DNA from: a virus
Reading direction: 5' to 3' (one strand)
Length of the DNA: 28,482 nucleotides
IMG/VR virus record: IMGVR_UViG_3300035180_000488
Coordinates: 1 to 28,482 of that record
In this document: positions 1,782 through 28,482 of the stretch, piece after piece
Position numbering within the stretch: position 1 is the first letter of the stretch
Layout: every line of letters begins with the position of its first letter
Program-made: the position numbers and the translations under genes
Notes under the pieces: model-generated
Databases searched by the model: none
What the model was told of the DNA's origin: nothing
The model's input: the letters and a program-made list of their open reading frames with translations, nothing else

Positions 1782-2368
1782 ATTACTCCCTATGGTATGA
1801 CGTTGAAACAACTGGTTTAGATATTAAAGACGGTGCGGCTATTGTTCAGATATCAGGCCTACTTTGTAACACAGATACAGGCGCAGTTATAGATGAGTTT
1901 GACTACTATATAAAACCTTCCACATATGGGAGAGAAGTTACAGTAGCACCTGAGGCTATGAAGATAAACGGCCTAAGTATTGATTGGCTAGAGGATAACG
2001 GTGTAGAGGCTGAATTTGTAGTTAAAAGCATTATGCATCTAGTCACGGTTAATTGTAGTAATGCTAAGGTTGTTCCTTGTGGCTATAATAATAGCACATT
2101 CGATAAGTTTTTCTTAGAAGAACTATTTAGTTTATTTAATAGGCAGATTAGTGCATATTTTACTAGAAAGCAAATTGATGTTTTTGAAGCATTAAAATTT
2201 ACTCAGTTTATGGGAGTCTTACCAAAGACGTTTAACCAAAAACTAGGTACAGTTTGTGAGGAGTTTGGTATCATAGAAGAAGGTAGCTTACACAATTCTA
2301 TGACGGACGTTAAGCTAACAAGAAAGTTAGCTCTATATATAAAGGAAAGAATAAATGGTAGCAACTAA
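1778..2368 (+). CDS. DnaQ-like 3'-5' exonuclease (DEDDh)
   Basis: A 196-aa DEDDh-family exonuclease. Motif ExoI is WYDVETTGLD (D8, E10), ExoII is GYNNSTFDKFF (D109), and ExoIII is HNSMTDVKL (H172, D177). These are the four acidic residues and the general-base His of the RNase T/epsilon group. Likely roles are proofreading or trimming of 3' ends, or nucleotide salvage, since it is encoded apart from the polymerase. ATG 1778 overlaps the previous stop in an ATGA junction and has CAGGAG at 1765-1770. A longer reading from 1751 would add nine basic residues without a Shine-Dalgarno and is rejected. Confidence 0.85.
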   Translation: MNYSLWYDVETTGLDIKDGAAIVQISGLLCNTDTGAVIDEFDYYIKPSTYGREVTVAPEAMKINGLSIDWLEDNGVEAEFVVKSIMHLVTVNCSNAKVVPCGYNNSTFDKFFLEELFSLFNRQISAYFTRKQIDVFEALKFTQFMGVLPKTFNQKLGTVCEEFGIIEEGSLHNSMTDVKLTRKLALYIKERINGSN

Positions 2369-2861
2369 ACAATTCAAGGCAGAGGTATCACATAGACTGG
2401 TATCATCATACAGTAAAAAGTGTCAAAGTATTCACGGGCATAGTTATATATTTGAGGTTTCACTTGAGTCTGAATATCTAAATGAAGATGGAATGGTTAT
2501 GGATTTTGGTGAACTAAAGAACAAACTTAGTCACTTGTTTGAAGCTTGGGATCATTCATTTATGTTCTATTCAGAAGACATATTAGCCGATCACTACAAA
2601 GCAATGTTAAGACTTCTTCCGCTTAGAATGATTGAAATTGACTATAACCCAACAGCAGAAAATATGGCTTACCATATATTTAGAGCTTGTGTTGATAACA
2701 GTTTGCCGGTTAAAGAAGTTAGAGTACAAGAAACTCTTACGGGTTGGGCTGTGGCTAAACGACTAAAACCGTTTATAGGTGAGGCAGTTACCTATTACAA
2801 TATACCAGAAATTGAAGTTCAACCGGGTGGAAATAAAAGGAGCTATAAGTGTTCAAAATAG
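2355..2861 (+). CDS. queD: 6-carboxy-5,6,7,8-tetrahydropterin synthase QueD
   Basis: A 168-aa protein of the PTPS/QueD fold. It converts 7,8-dihydroneopterin triphosphate (the FolE product) to 6-carboxytetrahydropterin, the second step towards preQ0. Zinc ligands are visible as SHRL (H13) and HGHSY (H27, H29), and the catalytic Cys is C23 in KKCQSIHGH. The VMDFG motif (D50-F51), WDHSFMF (D66-H67), PTAEN near 99-103 and RVQETLTGWA (E126, substrate anchor) complete the family signature. It is longer than the ~120 aa of E. coli QueD because of an insertion after WDHSFMF and a C-terminal extension. Overlaps of 14 bases with the preceding gene and 13 with queE place it first in the 7-deazaguanine cassette. 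Confidence 0.92.
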   Translation: MVATKQFKAEVSHRLVSSYSKKCQSIHGHSYIFEVSLESEYLNEDGMVMDFGELKNKLSHLFEAWDHSFMFYSEDILADHYKAMLRLLPLRMIEIDYNPTAENMAYHIFRACVDNSLPVKEVRVQETLTGWAVAKRLKPFIGEAVTYYNIPEIEVQPGGNKRSYKCSK

Positions 2862-3451
2862 TTGAAATGTTTAAGTCAATCCAGAGTGAGGGTCATCACT
2901 CCGGAACACCGGCATCTTTTATAAGATTCTTTGGGTGTAATTTAGCGTGTGATTTCGGAGGTGGTAAAGTTTGTGATGAACCACTACACACTGATAAGTC
3001 AAAGATAGACAAATGTTCTATCGAGGATATAATTAAATTTACTTCTGGTATAGATCACGTAGTTATTACAGGTGGTGAACCGTCACTTCAAGATCTAAAT
3101 GAGTTAATAACTAAGTTACAACTATTTGGGCATTACGTTCAAGTAGAAACTAATGGAGAAAACTTAGACAACATTAGTAAAGCTGATTGGATTACCTATT
3201 CACCAAAGTCAAGATGGTCAATTAAGGCTAAGGTCTTATTTGAAGGTTATGATGAGTTAAAACTCCCTGCTAGTAAAGATAATATACCTGGAGAGTTATG
3301 GAATATTACTCTTGCAGAGAAGTATCTTCAACCAATTAGTTTTGAGTCTGAACTAGACTTAGATAACATTAGATGGTGTGCTGACTATGTGGTTAACCAT
3401 CCAGAGTGGAAACTATCCATTCAACTACACAAATTATACGGAGGTCAATAA
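2849..3451 (+). CDS. queE: 7-carboxy-7-deazaguanine synthase QueE (radical SAM)
   Basis: A 200-aa radical SAM enzyme that converts carboxytetrahydropterin to 7-carboxy-7-deazaguanine. The N-terminal VEMFKSIQSEG matches the QueE opening (EiFxSIQGEG). RFFGCNLACDF supplies C30 and C34, TGGEP is at 74-78 (SAM binding), and VETNGE and SPKS follow. The next cysteine is C42, so the spacing is C-x3-C-x7-C and not the common C-x3-C-x2-C (see findings). The GTG start at 2849 is preferred to ATG 2867: AAGGAG lies at 2837-2842, and the extra six residues supply the conserved Glu. The stop and the next ATG share one base (TAATG). Confidence 0.88.
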   Translation: MFKIVEMFKSIQSEGHHSGTPASFIRFFGCNLACDFGGGKVCDEPLHTDKSKIDKCSIEDIIKFTSGIDHVVITGGEPSLQDLNELITKLQLFGHYVQVETNGENLDNISKADWITYSPKSRWSIKAKVLFEGYDELKLPASKDNIPGELWNITLAEKYLQPISFESELDLDNIRWCADYVVNHPEWKLSIQLHKLYGGQ

Positions 3452-4149
3452 TGTATCCAATAAGACTAGTACATATCGCTCCAACAAGCCTTATTAAGCT
3501 TGTTGATAAACATTATAATAAGGGACTAAATATGGTACTAACCCACTTAGTTCTTTCAGACCCTGCATATGCACAAGCGTTTGCTGAGATAGAGGGAGAA
3601 AAATATCTTGATAATAGTTTCTTTGAACTTGGATATTGTTTGTCACCTAAGGAAATGCTTGACGCCGCAGCTAAAGTAAATGCGACAACACTTATCTGTC
3701 CAGATGGAACACGTGATGGTTTAAAAGAGTTTAAAGAAGCTGGTTATAAAGTTATGTGTATTCCAAAAACACCAGAACAATTTCGTGAATTTATGTTTGA
3801 TAAAGACATAGATATGGTAGGTGTTAGTCCACAACACATTGACTACAGACATTCACCGGGTGCAAGATATGAACTATTTAGAGATCATATATCCTTAGAT
3901 ATGCCTAAAAAGAAAATTCACTTATTAGGCGCTACTGACAGTTGTTGGGAGTTAGGTATGTTATCACCGTATAGTTATTGGATATACTCTTGGGATAGTA
4001 GTGCAGCTATATGGCAGGGATTTTGTAAAGAGTTGTTACAGAGTCAGCCTAGAAAGAACTGTTTACCTGTCCGTTTTGGAGAACCAATTTCTTATATCAA
4101 TTTATTTATGCAGGAAAATATTGAGTTCCTGGAAAGGCTTGTAAAATGA
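3451..4149 (+). CDS. dpdA: DpdA-like DNA guanine transglycosylase (TGT-related)
   Basis: A 232-aa protein located inside the preQ0 cassette. Phage DpdA proteins are relatives of tRNA-guanine transglycosylase that exchange guanine in DNA for preQ0. Recognisable pieces are LDNSFFELG at 53-61 (place of the TGT barrel Asp segment), LICPDG near 81-86, VGVSPQH near 123-129, IHLLGATDS near 156-164 and YSWDSSAAIW near 179-188. It is much shorter than bacterial TGT (about 375 aa) and has no CxCxxC zinc site, which is known for some phage versions. ATG 3451 has GGAGG at 3440-3444; an in-frame extension to 3406 is rejected. The family call rests on motif memory plus context, and assignment of catalytic residues is inferred. 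Confidence 0.78.
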   Translation: MYPIRLVHIAPTSLIKLVDKHYNKGLNMVLTHLVLSDPAYAQAFAEIEGEKYLDNSFFELGYCLSPKEMLDAAAKVNATTLICPDGTRDGLKEFKEAGYKVMCIPKTPEQFREFMFDKDIDMVGVSPQHIDYRHSPGARYELFRDHISLDMPKKKIHLLGATDSCWELGMLSPYSYWIYSWDSSAAIWQGFCKELLQSQPRKNCLPVRFGEPISYINLFMQENIEFLERLVK

Positions 4150-4835
4150 AAGATACAGTATTAATTTATTCAGGTGGGCTTGATAGTACATCAGCTCTTC
4201 ATATCTATAAAGACCAAATAGTATTAGCTATTAGTTTTAACTACGGAAGTAAACATAACGGTCAAGAAATTAAGATGGCAAAACTAAACTGTGAACGCTT
4301 AGGTATTACACATAAAGTTATCCAACTTGATACTATATTCTCAAATATAAAATCTGCTTTGTTAAGTGACGGACCTATCCCACACGGACACTATGCAGAG
4401 GATAATATGAGATCAACAGTTGTACCTTTTAGAAACGGTATTATGCTTAGTATTGCTACTGGTATTGCTGAAAGTAATGGCTTAACTAAAATTATGTTGG
4501 CAAGTCATATGGGTGACAATGCGCAATATCCAGATTGTACTCAAGAGTTTAATAGTGCAATGGCTAGTGCTATTAAAAACGGTACTTGGGCAAGACTTGA
4601 ACTAGTGGCACCGTTCGCTAAAATAGATAAGCGTCAAATAGCTGAGATGGGTATTAAGGCAGGAATGGTTCCTGAACAAACCTATTCTTGTTATGAAGGT
4701 AACTTAGATGTTCATTGTGGAAGATGTGGAACCTGTGTTGAAAGAATATGGGCATTAGCTGACTCGGAAGATAAAACTGTATATAAAGATACAGAGTATG
4801 CAAAAAATTTACTTAAGGAAAGTGGAGAATGGTAA
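4146..4835 (+). CDS. queC: 7-cyano-7-deazaguanine (preQ0) synthase QueC
   Basis: A 229-aa ATP-dependent enzyme that turns 7-carboxy-7-deazaguanine into preQ0, the base to be inserted by DpdA. The PP-loop is SGGLDST at 9-15. The conserved VPFRNGIML segment is at 93-101 and YPDC at 128-131. The C-terminal zinc site is C182, C191, C194 and C197 (HCGRCGTCVER). Length agrees with bacterial QueC (about 220-230 aa), and no glutaminase domain is fused, so the expected product is the nitrile (preQ0) and not the amidine made via Gat-QueC fusions. It starts in an ATGA overlap with dpdA and overlaps folE by 7 bases. Confidence 0.92.
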   Translation: MKDTVLIYSGGLDSTSALHIYKDQIVLAISFNYGSKHNGQEIKMAKLNCERLGITHKVIQLDTIFSNIKSALLSDGPIPHGHYAEDNMRSTVVPFRNGIMLSIATGIAESNGLTKIMLASHMGDNAQYPDCTQEFNSAMASAIKNGTWARLELVAPFAKIDKRQIAEMGIKAGMVPEQTYSCYEGNLDVHCGRCGTCVERIWALADSEDKTVYKDTEYAKNLLKESGEW

Positions 4836-5392
4836 CTAGAAATGCGGCTGTAAAAGCAATGGAAAAAGTAATGGAGTATATTTCAAAAGGTAGACTAGAC
4901 CAACATACAGACGGTACTGCCTTAAGATTTATTAAGGCTTGGGATGATGATTGGGCAGAGGGTTATGAGAAAGAGTTTAAATTCACTACCTTTGAAGATG
5001 AAGGTACAGACCAGATGGTTGTAGAATTATCTATTCCAGTTGTTTCACACTGTTCTCACCACTTAGCGCCTATACTAGGTGTTTGTCATATTGCCTATTT
5101 ACCTAGTGATAAGATAGTAGGATTAAGTAAATTGAATAGGATAGTTGAAAAATTTTCAAGACGCTTACAAGTTCAAGAAAGACTTACTACACAGATTGCA
5201 GATGAATTGCAGGAACTATTACAACCTAGAGGTGTTGGTGTTCAAGTAGTTGCTGAACATATGTGTGTTAGTACTAGAGGGGTTAGACATCACGGTGCAA
5301 AGACTGTTACAACTAAGCTAACTGGTTTATTTCTAACGGAGTATAGTGTAAAGACTGAGTTTCTTAACACTATAAATACTTATGGAAAGTAA
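4829..5392 (+). CDS. folE: GTP cyclohydrolase I (FolE type IA)
   Basis: A 187-aa enzyme that opens GTP to 7,8-dihydroneopterin triphosphate, feeding QueD. Zinc ligands C75 and H78 lie in SHCSHHLAP, and C146 lies in EHMCVSTRG. LSKLNRIVEKFSRRLQVQERLT and the VRHHGAKTVTT segment are typical of FolE. The N-terminal helical arm is shorter than in E. coli FolE (222 aa), but the catalytic core is complete. A GGAG at 4823-4826 lies only two bases before the ATG at 4829, so translation probably depends on coupling to queC. Supplying its own FolE would make preQ0 production independent of host folate control. Confidence 0.93.
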   Translation: MVTRNAAVKAMEKVMEYISKGRLDQHTDGTALRFIKAWDDDWAEGYEKEFKFTTFEDEGTDQMVVELSIPVVSHCSHHLAPILGVCHIAYLPSDKIVGLSKLNRIVEKFSRRLQVQERLTTQIADELQELLQPRGVGVQVVAEHMCVSTRGVRHHGAKTVTTKLTGLFLTEYSVKTEFLNTINTYGK

Positions 5393-26003: not shown

Positions 26004-27515
26004 CTATAACGCCATCCTATCTGAATAGTTTGCTTTCGCAATCTTATATTTCTCCTCATAAGTCTTCTCTATTGTATTTTTAATCTTATGATATGTAAGA
26101 CCTAGTGCAGAATACCTAATTACGTCAGCGTAATGTGAATAATCATCGTGTTCTGGCACACCTAAGTAGACATCTAATCTTTTATCGTACTTTTGTCTGT
26201 AGTTTTGGATAGCTATTATCGTTTCGTTACAGTTTTCATCTATCTCCACAACACTAAGGTACTGTCTAGCTGCGTTTATACCCTCTTGTAAACTAAGTTT
26301 GGGTAATATTTTACATCTAACGCCTAGTCGTCTAAACTCTTCAAGCCTAGTTCTACCGGTTGATAGTTCCTTAACGTTTGCATCGTGCGGTAAAATTGCC
26401 TGCTCAATATTATAAGGTAACTTAGACATTATTTCTACATAGAACTCTATACTTTGTCCATTATTATCATATTCACCAATTATTTTAGGTACACCTTGTA
26501 TAATTTGAGTAAAATTTATACACATTCTGTCGTTCATACCTAAGTCAAATATAGCATATACGGGTTGTCCTGGTGTATATGGTGTAGGCTTAATCCGTTT
26601 ACTATTGATTAGTTTCTCGTATTGTAGTTTGTAGTATGTTCCCTCGACGGCAACGTTAAATGCGCTCTCTGGACTATATGGGTATTCCTGGTCAAACTTC
26701 TCAGCTAGTCTCTCCCTTTTCGCTGAACACCAATTCTTCTGTTCTTGAGTTAGTGTTATAGCTAAGTCTTTCTCTACTCTTGTAAAGTACTCAAAGTCAT
26801 CTTCTGAAGCTTCATAGTACTCATCCATACTACAATCAGGATCGTCAACCCAACTAAGAAATATTGGGTAGAAGTCTAAGGGTGTTAAACCTTCTGCTCC
26901 AACCAGCTTAAATCTTCTTTCTGCAGTCCTCCACATAGTAAAGAATAATCCTGTTTTACCTTCTGCTGTTGACTCAACACTTATAGAACTATTTGTACTT
27001 ACAGCCTCAAAGGCTCCGGTGTTTAATTCCTCTGCCTTCTCAGGAAACCTCTTTGCAATCTTAGCTAACTCTGAGACGTGAAGTGATGAAAGTGTATCCC
27101 CCCTAAAGTTACCTATTCGTAATGTAGACCCATTTGAAAATGTTAGTCCCTCAGAGTTACTTGAAACTAATTTTAGCCCTAACAACTCTTTTATTTGTGG
27201 GTCAAAGTTATCCCACATAAACAAGGCTTTCTTATATAACTTCTTAGCCTCATTCTGACCATATGACTGTACACCTGCCTGAGTATTGTCCCTGAATATA
27301 CATTTATCTAGTCCCTCAGCTACTTTGAATGTACTAATACCCTGCTGTCGAGACTTCAATGTTATTGTCTTAGGATGTTTTACTGCGAATACCTTCTCCT
27401 GTGCAAAGTTCAACCGCATCTGAACTACGGTGTCCTCCTTGTTAACTATGTAGTAGAGATTGTTAAGTCTCCAGTGTCTATCTGAGAGATAGTCTCTTAC
27501 GAAGTCCTCAAGCAT
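26004..27515 (-). CDS. Terminase large subunit
   Basis: A 503-aa packaging ATPase/nuclease. The Walker A-like loop is KSRQQGISTF near residues 54-63 (a variant of RQ-x-GKST common in terminases). A Walker B-like segment is SSLHVSELAKIAKRF, and SISVESTAEGK is the coupling motif. The nuclease domain shows AIFDLGMNDRMCINF (first Asp), LPHDANVKEL and SHYADVIRYSALG (last Asp), the RNase H-like triad of phage terminases. The gene is the second of the late unit and overlaps the small subunit candidate by 8 bases. It cuts concatemers and drives DNA into the prohead. Confidence 0.9.
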   Translation of the reverse strand: MLEDFVRDYLSDRHWRLNNLYYIVNKEDTVVQMRLNFAQEKVFAVKHPKTITLKSRQQGISTFKVAEGLDKCIFRDNTQAGVQSYGQNEAKKLYKKALFMWDNFDPQIKELLGLKLVSSNSEGLTFSNGSTLRIGNFRGDTLSSLHVSELAKIAKRFPEKAEELNTGAFEAVSTNSSISVESTAEGKTGLFFTMWRTAERRFKLVGAEGLTPLDFYPIFLSWVDDPDCSMDEYYEASEDDFEYFTRVEKDLAITLTQEQKNWCSAKRERLAEKFDQEYPYSPESAFNVAVEGTYYKLQYEKLINSKRIKPTPYTPGQPVYAIFDLGMNDRMCINFTQIIQGVPKIIGEYDNNGQSIEFYVEIMSKLPYNIEQAILPHDANVKELSTGRTRLEEFRRLGVRCKILPKLSLQEGINAARQYLSVVEIDENCNETIIAIQNYRQKYDKRLDVYLGVPEHDDYSHYADVIRYSALGLTYHKIKNTIEKTYEEKYKIAKANYSDRMAL

Positions 27516-27807
27516 CTATCACCCCTATGTCCATAGTAGGCAACGGTCGTGTGTCTGTACTAGACCCATACCTATCAAGGAGTAGTTGTATAGTTCTAAC
27601 CTGTGCTCCCTCAGTAAGTTTATCTCCGAAAGAATCCTCTATGCTAAGAACTATATCCGTTAAAACCTTAATGTCCCGCGGTTCATAGTACTTAGCATCT
27701 TGGTGTGTAATTTTTTCGTATGTTAAGTTTAAAGCGGTTATTTTGTAGTCGTCTAGTCTAGCTAGTATCTCCTGCTTTGTGGCTTGTAAGCTAAGTGGTT
27801 TATTCAT
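27508..27807 (-). CDS. Probable terminase small subunit
   Basis: A 99-aa mostly helical, charged protein (starts MNKPLSLQATKQEILARLDD) that immediately precedes the large terminase with an 8-base overlap. It has a KVLTDIVLSIEDSFGD helix pair and a QLLLDRYG helix, but no unmistakable HTH motif, so the assignment comes from gene order and size. It would recognise the packaging site, which may lie in the adjacent repeat region. AAGGA lies seven bases upstream of the ATG at 27807. Confidence 0.55.
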   Translation of the reverse strand: MNKPLSLQATKQEILARLDDYKITALNLTYEKITHQDAKYYEPRDIKVLTDIVLSIEDSFGDKLTEGAQVRTIQLLLDRYGSSTDTRPLPTMDIGVIDA

Positions 27808-27888
27808 CCTGCAGTCCTTTTTTGTATTATATGTATTTATTCCTTAATATCTCCTTAATTCTTTAGTTTAATAGTGGCAGCGGTGGTG

Positions 27889-27984
27889 GATTAGTGGATT
27901 AGTGGATTATTGTATTATAGGATTAGTAGATTAGTTGATAGTGGGATTAGTAGATTAGTTGATAGTGGGATTAGTTGATAGAGT
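27889..27984 (+). repeat. 8-bp-phased tandem repeat array (GATTAGT units)
   Basis: Twelve consecutive 8-base units can be laid out without a gap. Seven contain exact GATTAGT (starts 27889, 27897, 27921, 27929, 27945, 27953, 27969), and the others are variants (GATTATT, TATTATA, GATAGTG twice, GATAGAG). All start-to-start distances are multiples of eight. Two exact 24-base copies (27920-27943 and 27944-27967) form a higher-order repeat. The + strand is G/T-rich. It may be an origin iteron set, a packaging recognition site or a regulator-binding array. Confidence 0.85.
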
Positions 27985-28060
27985 ACTATATATAATAGGC
28001 ATATAACAGGGGGATAGAATCTGTTTTATCGTTAAATCGAGTTACAAGCTAAACTCCACA

Positions 28061-28081
28061 CCCCGGGCTTGTTGAGCGGGG
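28061..28081 (+). other. GC-rich hairpin in AT-rich control region
   Basis: CCCCG at 28061-28065 pairs with CGGGG at 28077-28081 around an 11-base loop. Imperfect outer pairing (GCTAA on the left with TTGGCTAGC on the right) may extend it. The surroundings are strongly AT-rich, which makes the island stand out. There is no T-run after it, so it is not a terminator. An origin or cis-acting packaging element is possible. Confidence 0.4.
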
Positions 28082-28303
28082 GTTGGCTAGCTGGTTATAT
28101 ATTATAGGCTATCACGTACGTACTAATCACATCATTTAATATCTTATAAAAGTTACGTAATTTAATCTTGTTTTAAGTAAAGTTATGATATTCACGCGTG
28201 TACATTATATAGCGCATTACTTACTTATCATTAATCTAATTCTTTAAGGAGAATTTAATATTTATTATATTATAATTATATAAATAAAAATAAGGACGAC
28301 AAA

Positions 28304-28482
28304 ATGACACACAACGTAACTACTAAAATGACACGCGATGAAGTTAGAGAACTACTCGAAAGTTTAAGAAAAGATTCAACTTTAACTTTAGACGAATATA
28401 ATAGTTTAATGCGTAAAATAACGACAGTAAGCTGGATTATAGCAAACACAGACGCAGGCTGCCGAAGAATACAGATATGCTT
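28304..28482 (+). CDS. N-terminal part of an unidentified + strand (early-type) protein, cut by window edge
   Basis: ATG 28304 has AAGGACG at 28292-28298 and opens a frame that stays open to the end of the window (59 complete codons). It reads MTHNVTTKMTRDEVRELLES, then LRKDSTLTLDEYNSLMRKIT and TVSWIIANTDAGCRRIQIC. The first part is helical and charged. No family is recognised. Its orientation, diverging from the late unit across the control region, suggests it is the first gene of another early or replication transcription unit. Confidence 0.6.
   Translation, partial: MTHNVTTKMTRDEVRELLESLRKDSTLTLDEYNSLMRKITTVSWIIANTDAGCRRIQIC

Follow-up and report, generated by a model that had tools for sequence, protein, structure and literature searches.

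SPP1-type pac sites carry repeats on both sides of the cut locus near terS, as does the candidate cut locus analyzed here, while SPP1 boxes are few and lie within or near terS, unlike the array described below. P22-type portals often go with headful packaging, i.e., with a pac site and not with cos. The terminase and portal families of T7 differ from those of the phage analyzed here, and its CCTAAAG arrays, which lie near the left end and again near the right end of the genome, adjoin the terminal repeat. The cosB of phage lambda spans 120 bp, contains three sites for the small terminase subunit (TerS), and lies beside cosN; the simple cosB of N15 does without IHF (PMC4669245). How start sites are chosen by terminases that have no obvious DNA-reading domain is poorly understood.

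We analyzed an IMG/VR phage contig of 28,482 bases from an uncultured bacterial virus, referred to here as the window. An array of short repeats sits between a terminase operon on the minus strand and divergent early genes, adjoining a GC-rich island (Table 1). The locus resembles lambda cos (cosQ-cosN-cosB) in its GC-rich candidate cut region and in the order of putative cut site, repeats (TerS sites in lambda), terS, and terL; the repeats lie between the candidate cut site and terS, as in a lambda-type cosB, and the 120 bp of cosB are close to the 96 bp of the array. However, lambda has three separated R sites and an IHF site, read by the winged helix-turn-helix of TerS, whereas the window has 12 contiguous octamers, a putative TerS without a helix-turn-helix-like segment, and no match to the IHF site (WATCAANNNNTTR), a trait of complex cosB, within 27808-28303. 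The end repeats of T7 and T3 are similar in being a strand-biased array of a short motif near a genome end (a putative one in the window) with early promoters next to it. They differ in the spacing of CCTAAAG (approximately 13 bp, for which T7 was rejected as a 7- or 8-base-phased analogue), in having the same orientation at both ends, and in that no GC island was seen. By analogy with these systems, we classify the array as a putative variant of known genome-end arrays.

Table 1. Features of the array and the intergenic region around it (positions in the window unless a relative is named)
Feature	Coordinates	Strand	Basis or remark
Large terminase subunit (TerL)	26004-27515	-	phrog_2, 6e-20
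Putative small terminase subunit (TerS), 99 aa	27508-27807	-	Aligned relatives L011 and L012 match a TerS PHROG
Longer TerS of relatives	L007 988-1470; L009 3428-3946; L010 9415-9900; L011 785-1357; L012 9301-9975		
TATAAT-like -10	27826-27831	-	By eye; immediately 5' of the ribosome-binding site of terS
8-base-phased array, 12 units, GATTAGTN consensus	27889-27984	+	Top strand G/T-rich; shuffles and TRF
TATAATAGGCATATAACAG, TATAAYAG-like motif twice, 11 bp apart	27991-28009	+	By eye and TRF; between array and island
GC-rich island, 39 bp, CCACACCCCGGGCTTGTTGAGCGGGGGTTGGCTAGCTGG	28056-28094		Intergenic region 30% GC; candidate terminase cut locus
Lone inverted GATTAGT	28122-28128	-	Beyond the island, toward the early genes; possibly a chance match
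First early ORF, 66 aa (complete in L005)	28304-28482	+	Runs off the window end

The octamer array and its surroundings

We found that the array reads, octamer by octamer, GATTAGTG, GATTAGTG, GATTATTG, TATTATAG, GATTAGTA, GATTAGTT, GATAGTGG, GATTAGTA, GATTAGTT, GATAGTGG, GATTAGTT, and GATAGAGT. GATTAGT is present in seven of the twelve units, with starts at 27889, 27897, 27921, 27929, 27945, 27953, and 27969 (spacings of 8, 24, 8, 16, 8, and 16 bases), and a 24-base higher-order unit, GATTAGTAGATTAGTTGATAGTGG, occurs in two exact copies (27921-27944 and 27945-27968). The motif count, the spacings, the twelve contiguous units, and the exact 24-base pair had all been reported in a first-pass annotation and were confirmed here, and its placement of the array in a divergent control region is likewise correct, since the putative terS lies on the minus strand and the early ORF on the plus strand. 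The self-match of the array is 58 at lag 8 and 59 at lag 24, compared to shuffle means of 30 and 25, and neither value was equaled in any of 5000 dinucleotide shuffles; the occurrence of one 7-mer seven times within 99 bp was also met in 0 of 5000. The TRF scores of the array, 93 for period 8 and 118 for period 24, are the top two in the window.

Overlapping contigs of the same phage (L002 and L005, 99.9-100% identity) contain an identical array with an equal unit count, and the array sequence is restricted to this one phage within viral_contigs. A direct DNA similarity search of GenBank phages with the region returned no match, and a search of 27500-28482 against Rfam returned no family at E<=1, i.e., no structured RNA element was found. 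A hairpin within the array was rejected since neither strand folds. Separately, short non-coding runs of GATTAGTN occur in seven unrelated viral contigs, and non-coding tandem runs of GATTAGTT/GATTAGTA were observed in the unrelated viral contigs L110, L112, L113, L114, and L115, the last with approximately 20 units.

The minus strand of the window encodes a P22-like portal (PF16510), a major head protein, TerL, and, upstream of TerL, a protein of 99 aa where terS would be expected, while the plus strand encodes an exonuclease, 7-deazaguanine synthesis genes, a ligase, and a fragment of DNA polymerase A (E 3.7e-6, short of the Pfam cut-off). Beyond the right end of the window, small genes of the early region and one for a primase-like protein (phrog_19785) follow in L005 and L002. 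The TerS PHROG is matched by the aligned relatives L011 (9e-8) and L012 (3e-6). In the alignment, the putative TerS of the window, L003, and L006 comprises the C-terminal helical part only, and an N-terminal helix-turn-helix-like segment is found in L007 and L009-L012; this segment was called from the alignment by eye, and a domain search gave no hit. A comparison of TerS folds was abandoned, the helical model being of too low confidence (pLDDT 58.9).

The TATAAT-like sequence nearest terS was not reported by the consensus promoter scan. Since the array is located upstream of it, the array is probably outside the terS leader. 11-bp pairs similar to the TATAAYAG-like one between array and island are also present in L003 and L006 (by eye and TRF). 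On the early side, a promoter-like, AT-rich leader of approximately 70 bp is repeated 5' of three successive small early genes (window 28230-28301; L002 1674-1745 and 1434-1504), and two of its copies have CTCTT...AAGAG arms.

Layout and 8-base phase among relatives

Relatives were collected by TerL scans and range from L003/L004 (98% TerL), L123 (74%), and L006 (53%) to many more distant loci. Approximately 20 of them share a common anatomy of terminase genes, an AT-rich and often repeat-bearing segment, a GC island, and early genes. This order is found in the nine genomes referred to here as the window group (the window, L003, L006, L007, L009, L010, L011, L012, and L123), and it is kept, with the terminase genes in the opposite orientation, in PH1, VPMS1, KF-1, Amaethon, ctXG1253, L016, L020, and L021. 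Within the window group the layout runs from the terS promoter region through an AT-rich segment with a G-rich top strand, the GC island (short in L009 and L007), and a C-richer segment to the early promoters. Nearly every lineage has a different repeat sequence. Most genomes of the window group carry direct repeats of their own on the left of the island, with lengths of 57 bp (L006), approximately 50 bp (L007), 62 bp (L009), 56 bp (L010), 17/44/77 bp (L012), and 9 bp (L011) and with sequences unrelated among lineages, and TRF finds no tandem repeat in the segment beside the island in L003 and L123.

The first-pass annotation had also raised the question of whether the array is absent from close relatives. 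GATTAGT is indeed gone from L003, despite its 98% TerL, while its top strand is still biased toward G and an 8-base phase, though weak, is kept. The phase is significant in the sisters with a diverged array sequence, being reached by 11 of 3000 shuffles for L003 and 6 of 3000 for L123, and on the left side of KF-1 (14 of 3000); these values carry no correction for the several sides that were tried. As a general property of all relatives, 8-base phasing was rejected: for sides without a strong array, the mean rank was 13.1 out of 26.

Strong arrays were scanned at periods 7, 8, 10, 11, and 13 across 1.33 Mb of relatives' loci. Six of the eight period-8 hits, belonging to five loci (the window, PH1, L016, L021, and L020), lie beside the island, and the remaining two are a GATA microsatellite and one weak hit; since the scanned loci were chosen by TerL, this count is not a genome-wide rate, and the arrays of PH1, L016, and L021 are mutually non-independent. 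Among the few hits at periods 7, 10, 11, and 13 in the same 1.33 Mb, none was recognized beside an island. In PH1, the island is directly followed by approximately 340 bp of degenerate octamers (TCTGGACG type); an array of this type is found at the same place in L016 and L021, and a 32-base repeat (by eye) in L020. Like the window array, those of PH1, L016, and L021 adjoin the GC island and combine a degenerate 8-base phase with higher orders of 16/24 bases. Unlike it, they have a different consensus, are longer in the case of PH1, and lie on the early side of the island and not on the terminase side, with terL upstream of the array. Unusual here are the octamer phase itself and its recurrence in PH1-like phages, where both the sequence and the side of the island are different.

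These comparisons bear on two other readings of the array. The octamers might have been built by slippage, as a neutral or near-neutral tandem expansion in a little-constrained spacer that is kept to give the divergent promoters room. Such an expansion would fit an array sequence confined to one phage in viral_contigs, a sister with 98% TerL that is without it, a repeat of its own in most relatives, and the short GATTAGTN runs of seven unrelated viral contigs. However, in the 1.33 Mb scanned, nearly all strong 8-base arrays adjoin the island, the 8-base phase outlasts sequence divergence in the sisters, and a switch in strand composition at the island (see below) is consistent in all nine window-group genomes, and we consider neutral expansion unlikely. 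The array might also lie upstream of a late (terS) promoter as a set of activator or repressor sites that time packaging-gene expression, which would suit its start approximately 55 bp upstream of the TATAAT before terS. This role appears very improbable given that PH1-like phages have their 8-base array across the island, following terL, that a spacing of 8 bases is not helical, and that the consensus scan left the terS promoter unscored.

Strand composition and record ends at the GC island

The first-pass annotation had described a G/T bias of the top strand. We found that the bias is real and common to the nine window-group genomes but flips at the island, which thereby forms a strand-composition switch, with G exceeding C on the terS side and C exceeding G on the early side in nine of nine genomes. 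In the PH1/KF-1 group the switch is weak or absent. Furthermore, the island flanks in the window group have the reverse of the coding skew seen in the neighboring genes. A common motif or common dyad was not supported for the islands, which are not alignable as one motif and do not share a dyad; of three islands folded, L006 alone was clearly better than shuffles (z -2.3).

Strand composition is also relevant to a replication origin, in which the array would be bound, in the manner of iterons, by an initiator or helicase loader of the phage, the AT-rich flanks would melt, and forks would run in the direction of transcription on both sides. The presence of direct repeats between divergent genes in AT-rich DNA, a primase-like protein (phrog_19785) encoded in the early operon, and a coding-strand skew that is G-rich outward on both sides are consistent with an origin, and a genome end and an origin can share one region. 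Yet the non-coding flanks are skewed opposite to the genes, and the primase-like protein is 94-96% conserved between the window's phage and L003/L004 while the array differs. A strict DnaA box (TTWTNCACA) is absent from 27808-28303, although phage-specific iterons may be present, and an origin leaves the record starts of two relatives in the island, described next, unexplained. Overall, we regard an origin as a minority possibility. Nothing was found in favor of the melted-DNA filament that had been suggested earlier, 27808-28303 having neither a strict DnaA box nor a strict IHF site.

The records of two isolated relatives begin in or at the island. For Edwardsiella phage ETP-1 (MK574011), record start and record end both fall inside the island of the near-identical KF-1 (KF-1 2300|2301), and its first bases, GCCTAGGGTCCC, and last bases, GGCGGTCCGGT, adjoin each other there. 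The record of vB_EpP_ZHX (OL959999) starts at KF-1 2273, 28 bp before that of ETP-1, and its first 1288 bases are perfectly repeated at the record end, which may be an assembly artifact; the genome size of these relatives is approximately 41.7 kb. That two records start within 28 bp of each other, at a landmark already chosen on anatomical grounds, is the best indication of a putative genome end at this position. Since ETP-1 was deposited as circular and the ZHX repeat ends at an 83-bp tandem repeat, a place where assemblies break, neither record proves a physical end; record starts can be chosen by authors, and one of the two may have been rotated to agree with the other. The KF-1 paper gives no information on genome ends. 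Edges of IMG/VR contigs near the island (L007, L011, L020, and L022) were rejected as evidence of ends since repeats could break assembly there. The 83-bp repeat is itself a second tandem array (83 bp x 3), located at 3546-3787 of KF-1 (L093) in an early intergenic region, and the vB_EpP_ZHX record ends at its start.

A candidate packaging-initiation site

The first-pass annotation had offered an origin, a terminase site, and an initiator filament as possible functions. Terminase or genome-end recognition is the best supported of the three because the position by the terminase genes and the island is conserved and because two isolate records start there. We propose, with confidence that is about evenly balanced, that the array could be one arm of a genome-end (packaging-initiation, cos/pac-like) site, with the island beside it as the candidate cut locus. 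Also in favor are the 8-base arrays that recur beside the island, the phase that outlasts sequence divergence in the sisters, and the composition switch in all nine window-group genomes. In such a site, terminase would cut the concatemer at the island, and the G/T-rich, 8-base-phased segment between island and terS would serve as a docking or wrapping array. Several terminase subunits might assemble on this degenerate, periodic pattern, bound through TerS or another part of terminase, and after the cut, packaging would presumably proceed from this end. The P22-like portal would count against a cos reading if it goes with headful packaging, which uses pac.

Simple recognition of the array by TerS meets complications, as judged from the alignments. 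The putative TerS of the window and L003 are 95% identical, yet their arrays are not the same, an argument against TerS reading a strict sequence, and the helix-turn-helix-like segment is absent from the predicted proteins of the window, L003, and L006. Further points against a genome-end site are that some relatives have no tandem repeat in the segment, that the islands share neither motif nor dyad, and that the PH1-like arrays lie on the early side. Recognition may be loose and periodic, another protein may read the array, or the array may be a slippage by-product in a composition-constrained segment. That the array is a terminase-recognition element in which period and strand composition would be read in place of a fixed sequence, while the repeat sequence turns over, seems to us quite doubtful.

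The first-pass annotation mentions neither the GC island nor the shared anatomy, nor that 8-base arrays are found again in PH1-like phages. Literature on 8-bp repeats near packaging sites was searched, and nothing relevant was found. The landmark amounts to a concrete predicted genome end in approximately 20 related podovirus genomes, testable in cultured PH1 and KF-1/ETP-1, and, if true, it would provide a rule by which the ends of metagenomic genomes from this podovirus group could be located.

Elsewhere in the window, a 7-deazaguanine synthesis cluster (QueD-like, QueE-like, QueC, and FolE) occupies 2355-5392, which suggests modified guanines in the phage DNA. Within this cluster, 3406-4149 encodes an unassigned protein of 232-247 aa that could be a DNA transglycosylase.
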